Origin: Zeimonas arvi
GTDB lineage: Bacteria > Pseudomonadota > Gammaproteobacteria > Burkholderiales > Burkholderiaceae_E
Direction of reading: 5' to 3'
DNA: 64,000 nt
Assembly: GCF_008039575.1 (NCBI RefSeq)
Contig: NZ_VDUY01000001.1
Location: 744,001-808,000 of the forward strand
In this document: in pieces, positions 21,711-25,160 of the stretch
Layout of the letters: each line of letters begins with the position of its first letter
Position numbering within the stretch: position 1 is the stretch's first letter
Notes under the pieces: model-generated
Told to the model about the DNA's origin: nothing
The model's database searches: none
Seen by the model: only the letters and a program-made list of their open reading frames with translations
Translations under genes and position numbers: made by a program

Positions 21711-22232
21711 CTAACGCCCCTGCGTGTCCAGTCGCGCCATGTTGTCGAGCAGCTTGAGCAGGTAGTGGATCGCGTGGGCCATGTCGTCGACCGAGAAGCC
21801 CTCGAGGGCCCGGGCGTAATAGGCCTCGATCTTGGGCTGCGCCAGCACGGTCCAGACGCGTCGCCCGGAGGGCGTCATCGTGATGCGCCGCGCACGGCGG
21901 TCTTGCCCGTCGGGCGCGCTGGCGAGATGACCGTCGCGCTCCATCCGGCCGATCAGGCCCGAGAGGTTCTGGCGGCTGACCATCAGGTAGCGCGCGAGCT
22001 CGTTGACGGTCATCCCGTCGCCCGCCTGCGGCCTGGACAAGGCCCCGAGCACCGCCCACTGCTGGGTGGTGAGCCCTTCCTCCTCCACCGCGCGTGTGCC
22101 GGTTTTATGCAACATATTGGCGCACTGGTACAGACGGAAGAAGAGACGGTTGGCGAGATCCATGCGCGTGGCATCGATCGCGCCACCCGCCGGAATGTGC
22201 CCCGAATCGGTGTTATTGCTCTCTGTCTTCAT
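21711..22232 (-). CDS. badR: MarR-family regulator, BadR-like
   Basis: About 173 residues with a MarR winged-helix: an N-terminal helix (RLFFRLYQCANMLHKTGTRA), TTQQWAVLGALSRP, the recognition region VNELARYLMVSRQNLSGLIG and wing DGQDRRARRITMTPSGRRVW. It is divergent from badH and shares a 165-nt regulatory region with one perfect palindrome. In Rhodopseudomonas palustris, the MarR protein BadR represses badHI/aliBA until an alicyclic CoA intermediate is present; the same wiring is inferred here from position. Start ATG 22232 (MKTESNN) follows a purine-rich GAGACGAG; an upstream in-frame ATG at 22250 is possible. Confidence 0.85.
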   Translation of the reverse strand: MKTESNNTDSGHIPAGGAIDATRMDLANRLFFRLYQCANMLHKTGTRAVEEEGLTTQQWAVLGALSRPQAGDGMTVNELARYLMVSRQNLSGLIGRMERDGHLASAPDGQDRRARRITMTPSGRRVWTVLAQPKIEAYYARALEGFSVDDMAHAIHYLLKLLDNMARLDTQGR

Positions 22233-22291
22233 GGCTCGTCTCTTGGTCATCGCGCACCCGCCCGGAACGGAATGAGCCTCGGGGAAAACGC

Positions 22292-22320
22292 TTGTCTTGA
22301 TCGATCATATCAGTCAATAT
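22292..22320 (+). promoter_or_regulatory. Predicted badH promoter
   Basis: TTGTCT (22292-22297), a 17-nt spacer, and CAATAT (22315-22320) form a reasonable sigma-70 promoter pointing at badH. It is AT-rich DNA in an otherwise GC-rich chromosome. The -10 lies inside the palindrome at 22313-22326. Confidence 0.6.
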
Positions 22321-22332
22321 ATTGACATACAA
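22304..22332 (-). promoter_or_regulatory. Predicted badR promoter
   Basis: On the minus strand, TTGTAT (22332-22327), a 17-nt spacer and TATGAT (22309-22304) point at badR. The spacer contains almost all of the palindrome at 22313-22326, so one bound dimer would block both directions. Confidence 0.58.
22313..22326. promoter_or_regulatory. Perfect 14-bp palindrome, probable BadR operator
   Basis: GTCAATATATTGAC is a perfect inverted repeat in the badR-badH intergenic region. Size and AT-rich centre suit a MarR dimer. It covers the -10 of the badH promoter and the spacer of the badR promoter, predicting repression of badH and autoregulation of badR. Confidence 0.65.
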
Positions 22333-22385
22333 TTCCGACCAGACCCCGGTTCCCGGCCAGGACATGCCGTGGAGCCCCATCCATG

Positions 22386-22393
22386 AAGGAGGA
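22386..22393 (+). promoter_or_regulatory. Ribosome-binding site that sets the badH start
   Basis: AAGGAGGA is a near-perfect Shine-Dalgarno sequence. It begins directly after an in-frame ATG at 22383 and sits 4 nt before TTG 22398, so TTG is the likelier start. Confidence 0.65.
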
Positions 22394-22397
22394 ACCC

Positions 22398-23165
22398 TTG
22401 AACGCATTCGAAGGCAAGACCGTGATCGTCACCGGCGGCGGCGGCGGCATCGGCGGGGCGACCTGCCGCCGCTTCGCGAAGGCCGGCGCCCGGGTCGCGG
22501 TGCTCGATCGCAACCCCGAGGCTGCCGGCACGGTGGCCCGCGAGATCCAGGCCGCCGGCGGCGCCGCTGCCGCGATCACCTGCGACATCACCGACCGCGC
22601 GAGCGTCGATGCGGCGGTGGCGGCCGCCTCCGGGCAGCTCGGCCCGATCGACGTGCTGGTCAACAACGCCGGCTGGGACATCTTCAAGCCCTTCACGAAG
22701 ACCGAGCCCTCGCAGTGGGACAGGCTGATCGCGATCAACCTGGTCGGCGCGCTGCACATGCACCACGCGGTGCTGCCCGGCATGGTCGAGCGGCGGCGCG
22801 GCCGGATCGTCAACGTGTCGTCGGACGCGGCGCGTGTGGGCTCCTCGGGCGAGGCGGTCTACGCCGCCTGCAAGGGCGGGCTGGTCGCCTTCTCCAAGAC
22901 CATCGCCCGCGAGCACGCCCGCCACGGCATCACGGTCAACGTGGTGTGCCCCGGCCCCACCGACACCGCGCTGTTCGCCGACTACAAGGAAGGCGCGGGC
23001 AACCCCGAGAAGCTGGTCGAGGCCTTCACCCGCTCGATCCCGCTGGGCCGCATCGGCCAGCCCGACGACCTGCCCGGCGCGATCCTCTTCTTCGCGAGCG
23101 ACGACGCCGCCTACATCACCGGCCAGGTCCTGAGCGTCTCCGGCGGCCTCACCATGGCCGGCTGA
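22398..23165 (+). CDS. badH: 2-hydroxycyclohexanecarboxyl-CoA dehydrogenase (SDR)
   Basis: A 255-residue short-chain dehydrogenase/reductase. The NAD-binding motif TGGGGGIGGATCRRF starts near residue 13; NNAG, the catalytic Ser in IVNVSSDAARVGSSG and Tyr/Lys in EAVYAACKGGLVAFSK follow. The sequence resembles R. palustris BadH as I remember it (NNAGWDIFKPFTKTEPSQW; VVCPGPTDTALF; SVSGGLTMAG end). BadH oxidises 2-hydroxycyclohexanecarboxyl-CoA to the 2-keto compound. Start TTG 22398 is chosen because of the Shine-Dalgarno sequence before it; ATG 22383 would add five residues and overlap that site. First gene of the badH-badI-aliB transcript. Confidence 0.88.
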   Translation: MNAFEGKTVIVTGGGGGIGGATCRRFAKAGARVAVLDRNPEAAGTVAREIQAAGGAAAAITCDITDRASVDAAVAAASGQLGPIDVLVNNAGWDIFKPFTKTEPSQWDRLIAINLVGALHMHHAVLPGMVERRRGRIVNVSSDAARVGSSGEAVYAACKGGLVAFSKTIAREHARHGITVNVVCPGPTDTALFADYKEGAGNPEKLVEAFTRSIPLGRIGQPDDLPGAILFFASDDAAYITGQVLSVSGGLTMAG

Positions 23166-23203: not shown

Positions 23204-23986
23204 ATGAACTACGAAGACATCCTGTACGAAGTGCGCAACGGCGCGGCCTGGATCACGATCAACCGCCCCGAGAAGATGAACGCCTTCCGCGGCAAGACCT
23301 GCGACGAGCTGATCCACGCGATCAACCGCGCGGGCTACGACCGCGAGATCGGCGCCATCGTGCTCGCCGGCGCCGGCGAGCGTGCCTTCTGCACCGGCGG
23401 CGACCAGTCGGCCCACGAGGGCCAGTACGACGGCCGCGGCACCATCGGCCTGCCGGTGGAGGAACTGCACAACGCGATCCGCGACGTGCCCAAGCCGGTG
23501 ATCGCCCGGGTGCAGGGCTATGCGATCGGCGGAGGCAACGTGCTGTGCACGATCTGCGACTTCACCATCGCCTCGGAGAAGGCGATCTTCGGCCAGGTGG
23601 GCCCGAAGATGGGCTCGGTGGATCCGGGCTTCGGCACCGCCTTCCTCGCCCGCGTGGTGGGCGAGAAGAAGGCGCGCGAGATCTGGTACCTGTGCCGCCG
23701 CTACCCGGCCGCCGAGGCCCTGGCCATGGGCCTGATCAACGCGGTGGTGCCGCACGAGCAGCTCGACGCCGAGGTGCAGAAGTGGTGCGACGAGATCATG
23801 GAGAAGAGCCCCACCGCCCTCGCGATCGCCAAGCGCTCGTTCAACATGGACACCGCCCATCAGGCGGGCATCGCCGGCATGGGCATGTACGCGCTCAAGC
23901 TCTACTACGACACCGAGGAGTCGCGCGAGGGCGTCAAGGCCTTCCAGGAAAAGCGCAAGCCCGACTTCCGCAAGTACGCCAAGTGA
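23204..23986 (+). CDS. badI: 2-ketocyclohexanecarboxyl-CoA hydrolase
   Basis: A 260-residue crotonase-fold enzyme, the same length as R. palustris BadI. It hydrolytically opens the ring of 2-ketocyclohexanecarboxyl-CoA to pimelyl-CoA. The sequence is very close to BadI as I recall it: INRPEKMNAFRGKTCDEL, GERAFCTGGDQSAHEG, YDGRGTIGLPVEELH, GQVGPKMGSVDPGFGTAF, and the C-terminal NMDTAHQAGIAGMGMYALKL. The CTGGDQ and MGSVDPGFG segments shape the active site. Start ATG 23204 is 38 nt behind badH. This gene is the strongest anchor for the pathway. Confidence 0.93.
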   Translation: MNYEDILYEVRNGAAWITINRPEKMNAFRGKTCDELIHAINRAGYDREIGAIVLAGAGERAFCTGGDQSAHEGQYDGRGTIGLPVEELHNAIRDVPKPVIARVQGYAIGGGNVLCTICDFTIASEKAIFGQVGPKMGSVDPGFGTAFLARVVGEKKAREIWYLCRRYPAAEALAMGLINAVVPHEQLDAEVQKWCDEIMEKSPTALAIAKRSFNMDTAHQAGIAGMGMYALKLYYDTEESREGVKAFQEKRKPDFRKYAK

Positions 23987-24008
23987 CCACCGGCAGCCAG
24001 GAGTGGCG

Positions 24009-25160
24009 ATGAACCCCTACATCGACGAGGATCTCGCGGCGCTCGGCGAGCACGCCCGGCGCTTCGCGACCGACCGGATCGCACCCGGCTTCCTCGAGCG
24101 CGACCGCACCCGGGTGCTCGACCGCGCATTGATGCGCCAGATGGGCGAGATGGGATTCATCGCGCCCGAGCTGCCGGAGCAGTACGGCGGCCAGGGCATG
24201 GGCTGCCTGGCCGCCGGGGTGATCCACGAGGAGATCGCACGCGCCGACCTGAGCCTGTCCTACATCAACCTGCTCGCCTCGCTGACCGGCCAGATCCTGG
24301 CCGAGCACGCGCGGCCCGACGTCGCCGCACACTGGCTGCCCCGGCTCACCCGGGGCGAGGCGCTGCTGGCGATCGCGCTGACCGAGCCGCGCGGCGGCTC
24401 GGACGCGGCCAACCTGCGGCTCAAGATGACGCGCGACGGCGACCACTATGTGATCGACGGCGAGAAGACCTCGATCTCGGCGGCCGACCAGGCCGACGCC
24501 ACCGTGCTCTTCGCGCGCACCGGCACGGTCGAATCCGGCGCGCGCGGCGTATCGGCCATCCTGGTGCCGATGGACACGCCCGGCGTGACCACCACCCGCT
24601 TCGACTGCCACGGCCAGCGCGCGATCGGCCGCGGCTCGATCTTCTTCCAGAACGCGCGCGTGCCGGCCAGCCACCTGCTCGGGCAGGAAGGCCAGGGCTT
24701 CGTGCAGGTGATGCAGGGCTTCGACTTCTCGCGCGCGCTGATCGGACTGCAGGTGCTCGCGGTGGCGCGCGTCGCGCTCGAGGAGACCTGGGAGTACGTC
24801 GCGCAGCGCGAGGCCTTCGGCAAGCCGCTGTCGGCCTTCCAGGGCGTCTCGCATCCGCTCGCCGACTACGAGACCCAGGTCGAGGCCGCGCGGCTGCTGT
24901 GCCTGCAGACGCTGTGGCTCAAGGACAAGGGCCTGCCGCACACGGCCGAGGCCGCGATGTGCAAATGGTGGGGCCCGAAGCTCGCCTACGACACGGTGCA
25001 CCAGTGCCTGCTGTCCTTCGGGCACGGCGGCTACGACCGCGGTCCGATGGAGCAGCGGCTGCGCGACGTGCTGGGCTTCCAGATCGGCGACGGCACCGCG
25101 CAGATCATGAAGACGATCATCGCGCGCGGGCGGGCGGGGCGAGGTTCGGTGCCGGCGTGA
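24009..25160 (+). CDS. aliB: Acyl-CoA dehydrogenase, probably cyclohexanecarboxyl-CoA dehydrogenase
   Basis: A 383-residue FAD-dependent acyl-CoA dehydrogenase. Flavin and substrate segments are clear: ALLAIALTEPRGGSDAANLR, RAIGRGSIFFQNARVPASH, the middle-domain GQEGQGFVQVMQGFDFSRAL and the C-terminal REAFGKPLSAFQGVSHPLAD. AliB oxidises cyclohexanecarboxyl-CoA to the cyclohexene-1-carboxyl-CoA that feeds BadK, BadH and BadI. The specific substrate is inferred from linkage with badH and badI. Start ATG 24009 has AGGAG at good spacing; GTG 24003 is in frame but worse. Last member of the cluster; aliA (CoA ligase) and badK (hydratase) are not present. Confidence 0.85.
   Translation: MNPYIDEDLAALGEHARRFATDRIAPGFLERDRTRVLDRALMRQMGEMGFIAPELPEQYGGQGMGCLAAGVIHEEIARADLSLSYINLLASLTGQILAEHARPDVAAHWLPRLTRGEALLAIALTEPRGGSDAANLRLKMTRDGDHYVIDGEKTSISAADQADATVLFARTGTVESGARGVSAILVPMDTPGVTTTRFDCHGQRAIGRGSIFFQNARVPASHLLGQEGQGFVQVMQGFDFSRALIGLQVLAVARVALEETWEYVAQREAFGKPLSAFQGVSHPLADYETQVEAARLLCLQTLWLKDKGLPHTAEAAMCKWWGPKLAYDTVHQCLLSFGHGGYDRGPMEQRLRDVLGFQIGDGTAQIMKTIIARGRAGRGSVPA

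Follow-up and report, generated by a model that had tools for sequence, protein, structure and literature searches.

A probable BadR operator between badR and badH

We analysed a 64,000-nt stretch of the Zeimonas arvi genome (the window), in which the divergent genes badR and badH are separated by a perfect 14-bp palindrome, GTCAATATATTGAC. Judged by its sequence and its conservation, this palindrome is very probably a BadR operator, and we put at roughly 0.8 the probability that it serves the divergent badR / badH-badI-aliB unit in such a way that one bound dimer would block both promoters. A preliminary description had reported the palindrome, and it is indeed present and perfect over all 14 bp (Table 1).

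Table 1 Features of the badR–badH region (positions in the window).
Feature	Positions	Strand	Remarks
Perfect 14-bp palindrome GTCAATATATTGAC	22313-22326		Between badR (minus) and badH (plus)
Palindrome core CAATATATTG	22315-22324		Fits BadR operator CAATnnATTG
18-bp operator motif, consensus ACGTCAATATATTGACGT	22311-22328		From alignment across relatives
badR -10 candidate TATGAT	22304-22309	minus	Best-scoring badR promoter; 5/6 consensus
badR -35 candidate TTGTAT	22327-22332	minus	17 nt from -10; 3/6 consensus
badH -35 candidate TTGATC	22297-22302	plus	15 nt before TATATT; low confidence
badH -10 candidate TATATT	22318-22323	plus	Inside palindrome; low confidence
Alternative badH -35 TTGTCT (preliminary description)	22292-22297	plus	4/6 consensus
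Alternative badH -10 CAATAT (preliminary description)	22315-22320	plus	3/6 consensus
badR, MarR-family regulator	21711-22250	minus	179 aa from ATG 22250; passes Pfam MarR cut-offs
Operator-core look-alike CAATATGTTG in badR	22110-22119	minus	Last base of codon 44 to end of codon 47
badH, 2-hydroxycyclohexanecarboxyl-CoA dehydrogenase	22398-23165	plus	TIGR03206 over cut-off (scanned from ATG 22383)
badI, 2-ketocyclohexanecarboxyl-CoA hydrolase	23204-23986	plus	TIGR03210 over cut-off
aliB, cyclohexanecarboxyl-CoA dehydrogenase	24003-25160	plus	TIGR03207 over cut-off

The window carries the BadR operator core (CAATnnATTG / CAAN4TTG) between divergent genes, and the site would be an ordinary instance of the already known BadR operator type. 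Genome-wide, the 14-mer has no other match even with up to 2 mismatches allowed, and GTMAANNNNTTKAC has one exact match; near-copies of GTMAANNNNTTKAC (at most 1 mismatch) are not enriched, because they occur at 45 places in the genome vs 54 for the pattern read backwards. CAATNNATTG was found at 8 places in the genome, with the GTM/KAC flanks on the window's copy only.

Conservation of the operator in relatives

A search with the badR protein gave 289 relatives, of which we then compared the best 80. Of these loci, 72 have badH divergent from and adjacent to badR, and in 78 the 18-bp motif lies upstream of badR; no recognisable operator was found in the remaining two, L063 and L086. L086 also yielded no other bad gene at the thresholds used. 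The conserved stretch exceeds the published core, comprising the consensus ACGTCAATATATTGACGT together with A+T-rich flanks. When motif and sites were learned from 40 of the 80 loci only, under strict separation, 39, 39, 39 and 40 of the 40 other loci scored above 10 bits, vs 0/40 for shuffled sequence each time. Elsewhere in the locus the motif was found in 0 of 37–40 cases, a control in which a model of all 80 loci had served to position the training sites. The window's operator scored 21.4 bits, towards the low end and below most relatives. At most column pairs, covariation between the half-sites was no stronger than for shuffled halves; a slight excess appeared at columns 3/14 and 4/13. 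The locus L016, from a metagenome-assembled genome (MAG: Lautropia sp. SCN 70-15), has badH 98% and badR 90% identical to those of the window.

These data bear on two other explanations of the palindrome. The first takes it for an A+T-rich palindrome that arose by chance: perfect palindromes of at least 14 bp are not rare in the window, whose G+C is 71% (18 found vs about 12.8 expected), but those with at least 10 of 14 positions A+T are expected about 0.01 times, and one was found. We rejected this explanation, which we consider barely credible, on the retention of the motif at this place in nearly all of the 80 loci. The second assigns the site to another regulator acting on the badR/badH pair, e.g., an FNR-type protein, on the strength of TTGAT at 22297-22301, which resembles half of an FNR box. 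We consider this very unlikely: inspection by eye shows no second FNR half, and it is the published BadR operator that the conserved motif fits.

Predicted promoters on both sides of the operator

We scored sigma-70 hexamers around the operator in 87 distinct loci with the window excluded; these comprise 78 of the 80 loci and 12 of 14 from genome searches, minus three duplicates, with L011 and L099 left out at scores below 6 bits. In the window itself, a consensus scan of 22150–22450 (at least 4/6 for each hexamer and at least 9/12 in total) returned no promoter on either strand. By score, the top badR candidate in the window is TTGTAT-17-TATGAT, the same promoter that the preliminary description had proposed, and its spacer is filled as described there, the 14-mer plus 3 nt occupying the 17 nt between the hexamers. 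The best badR candidate in L016 is TTGTGC-17-TATGAT, so that the two loci share TTGTRY-17-TATGAT, and in L004 TTGTAC-17-TAGTAT ties with TTGTAC-15-TATAGT.

On the badH side, the proposed TTGTCT/CAATAT has the 17-nt spacing claimed for it, but the hexamers match the consensus at 4/6 and 3/6 and fall outside the top three candidates; TTGATC-15-TATATT scored above them and is the best badH candidate. The placement of the badH -10 within the palindrome fared better, as TATATT also lies inside, although CAATAT itself makes a poor -10. The badH -10 may well be located within the palindrome, where both candidate -10 hexamers fall. Taken as a whole, the earlier observation was borne out for the palindrome and the badR hexamers and proved weak for the badH hexamers.

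Among the relatives, the best badH -10 starts 5–7 nt before the operator in 56/87 loci (shuffled flanks: mean 2.7, max 9), with TTGC as the usual beginning of the -35 and a spacer of 17 nt in 44 of the 56; in the other 31/87 it lies elsewhere. Similarly, the best badR -10 is at one common place in 40/87 loci (control mean 6.5, max 12). Both -10 elements occupy their usual places in 28/87 loci and do not both do so in 59/87, and the two clustering tests are not independent, because the elements overlap on opposite strands. From the clustering of these predicted elements, the commonest layout in relatives has a single operator lying over the spacer of the badR promoter as well as the region where badH transcription would start.

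The frequent badH layout (TTGC, 17 nt, TAWWAT, then operator) is absent from the window and from L016, so that the badH start is uncertain in the window. In 71/88 loci a TTG begins 29 or 30 nt ahead of the operator; the only TTG positions in the window and L016 are -19 and -14, whereas L004 retains -29. The shifted TTG of the window might stem from a 10-bp deletion, but the alignment with L016 and L004 fits substitutions plus small gaps equally well.

The promoter survey also bears on a narrower role for the site, in which the operator represses badH only and badR has a separate start that escapes regulation. Across the family the badR -35 shows little conservation, with many hexamers and spacers of 16–19 nt, and the non-independence of the two -10 predictions also speaks for this alternative. 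The gathering of badR -10 predictions at one place well above the control maximum, and the hexamers common to the window and L016 (with the tied L004 candidate), argue against it, and we regard it as unlikely.

Gene content of the cluster

The window holds a MarR-type regulator divergent from badH, as in a bad cluster, together with badI and aliB; aliA and badK, which a complete bad-ali pathway would have alongside them, do not follow aliB here. The bad cluster of the window stops at aliB (25160). Two gene starts differ among the possible readings: ATG 22232 may be the badR start instead of ATG 22250, and badH probably begins at TTG 22398, following AAGGAGG, rather than at ATG 22383. By eye, L016 has ACG in place of ATG 22250 and GTG in place of ATG 22232, and L005 has an ATG aligned with TTG 22398.

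We searched the genome (G000) for these two genes. No aliA was found over the TIGR03208 cut-off, the best match reaching 231 of 792 bits. The best BadK-like gene is 65% identical and located on another contig, and the NCBIfam model that fits it best describes a general enoyl-CoA hydratase; the nearest operator motif on that contig, with one mismatch, is about 20 kb from the gene. The preliminary description had suggested finding aliA/badK by searching the genome for the 14-mer, a route that led nowhere, as there is one exact motif match only and no aliA over the curated cut-off. In the best 80 of 289 relatives, aliA was detected in 59 loci at the thresholds used, some loci being too short to include it; it was not found in the 10.5 kb around the G003 cluster. 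Across 11 genomes, TIGR03208 was over its cut-off in 5 and gave no match at E 1e-100 in the other 6 (G000, G003, G007, G021, G022 and G030), G007 being only 68% complete.

Comparison with known BadR systems and proposed mechanism

For Aromatoleum sp. CIB, the operator CAATnnATTG has been examined in gel-shift assays, and CAAN4TTG is described as occurring in most Gram-negative clusters (Sanz and Diaz, PMC9795900). The Aromatoleum aliB/aliA promoters share with the window a MarR-type BadR, the core CAATnnATTG and control of bad-ali genes, but there two operators lie over the predicted -35 boxes of two catabolic promoters, whereas the window has one, between badR and badH (PMC9795900). Rhodopseudomonas palustris is similar in having badR divergent from the badH operon and a site quoted as CAATacATTG at the badH promoter (Hirakawa et al. 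2015, via PMC9795900); its operon also contains aliA and badK, whereas neither follows aliB in the window. BadR/PH16_RS27200 of Cupriavidus necator H16 shows the behaviour of a repressor system, with cyclohexanecarboxylate as the inducer, but the available portions of PMC7057948 describe no operator, unlike the site in the window. Reported effectors are cyclohexanecarboxyl-CoA, shown for Aromatoleum, and 2-oxocyclohexane-1-carboxyl-CoA for R. palustris (PMC9795900). A statement that BadR represses badR was not found in the available portions of PMC9795900 and PMC7057948.

For the present organism we infer that BadR binds the site, that it represses badR as well as badH, and what its effector is. 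When alicyclic acyl-CoA is lacking, a dimer of the MarR-type BadR would sit on the palindrome, covering the badR promoter spacer together with the -10 and start of the badH promoter, and this single dimer would block both badR and badH. A pathway CoA ester, e.g., cyclohexanecarboxyl-CoA or 2-ketocyclohexanecarboxyl-CoA, would release it. The earlier proposal, in which a BadR site is so positioned that it closes down both divergent genes, is supported, at the level of prediction, by the published operator and by conservation; its badR promoter scores best in the window, while its exact badH promoter is doubtful and its 14-mer search for aliA/badK failed. The site extends the known BadR switch, which controls genes for the breakdown of alicyclic ring acids, to another lineage. 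What is new beyond the published 10-bp core is the conserved motif of about 18 bp and the frequent promoter layout, which together give clear predictions of bases to test.

A conserved rare codon and an operator look-alike within badR

Codons 44–47 of badR (Ala-Asn-Met-Leu) resemble the operator core, and Leu47 is encoded by the rare codon TTG. In the first set (best 80 of 289 relatives) plus the window, TTG was found at Leu47 in 77/81. Peptide patterns had been used to gather this set, and one of them (YQCANMLH) coincides with the stretch of badR in question; because of the possible bias, we repeated the codon analysis on 66 loci from whole-genome protein searches. Four of these were set aside (two unparsed, one truncated and one with a stop; all four have TTG) and the window was added, giving 63 rows. 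Leu47 was TTG in 50/62 of the 66-locus set vs 7.0 expected on the basis of the remaining Leu codons in each gene, in 41/52 vs 5.7 expected without ten loci sharing an identical badR stretch with the 80, and in 37/48 vs 5.6 expected (sd 2.1) once near-identical rows were removed. At Gln42, CAA was found in 75/81 in the first set vs 49/63 in the other.

With near-identical rows removed, Leu47 and Ala44 were the two most constrained of 94 positions; under the strictest thinning, Ser92 was level with Leu47 and above Ala44. Ala44 was GCA or GCC in 46/47 and GCG once, whereas GCG makes up 371/827 of Ala codons, and this departure of GCC vs GCG from background is not what plain A+T-richness predicts. 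In the control gene badH, the strongest positions were two serines kept in AGC, followed by values well below that of Leu47. These results indicate that the synonymous constraint in badR is real, and the conserved rare codon points to a DNA or RNA signal within the regulator gene.

One reading, which we advance tentatively and with the odds against it, is that badR has a second, weaker BadR-binding element in codons 44–47 (core MAAYATGTTG), maintained through selection on synonymous codons and contributing to autoregulation, e.g., as a transcription roadblock. Should the internal signal be an operator, the simple switch would gain an autoregulatory step. In 135 of 146 pattern-fitting loci (some of them duplicates), no other part of a 460-nt badR stretch resembles the operator better than the internal site. 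On the full 18-bp motif the internal site has a median of -0.6 bits, as it lacks the conserved outer GT and AC, and the core MAAYATRTTK is matched by 42/63 rows only. Two codons beyond the core, Q42 and K49, also tend towards A, so that a general A+T-rich signal is possible. The distance between the internal site and the main operator is 127–233 bp across 136 loci and 205 bp in the window, and no helical phasing between the two was detected over 23 distinct distances (p ~0.35 at a period of 10.5, 0.10 at 11).

Finally, we related the codon to the main operator, scored with the model trained on the 80 loci. TTG was present in 44/50 loci with a main operator of at least 12 bits and in 4/12 below that (Fisher p 3e-4, uncorrected for kinship and G+C). 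The 12-bit threshold was set after viewing the rows; thresholds of 6, 10, 15 and 20 bits gave p values of 0.0002–0.0035 (parsed rows of the 66 loci). CTG despite a main operator of at least 12 bits was seen in L008, L012, L136, L155, L170 and L177, and in the plasmid loci L184 and L185. Among the plasmid loci (6 of 16 matching plasmid records), Leu47 was TTG in 3/6.
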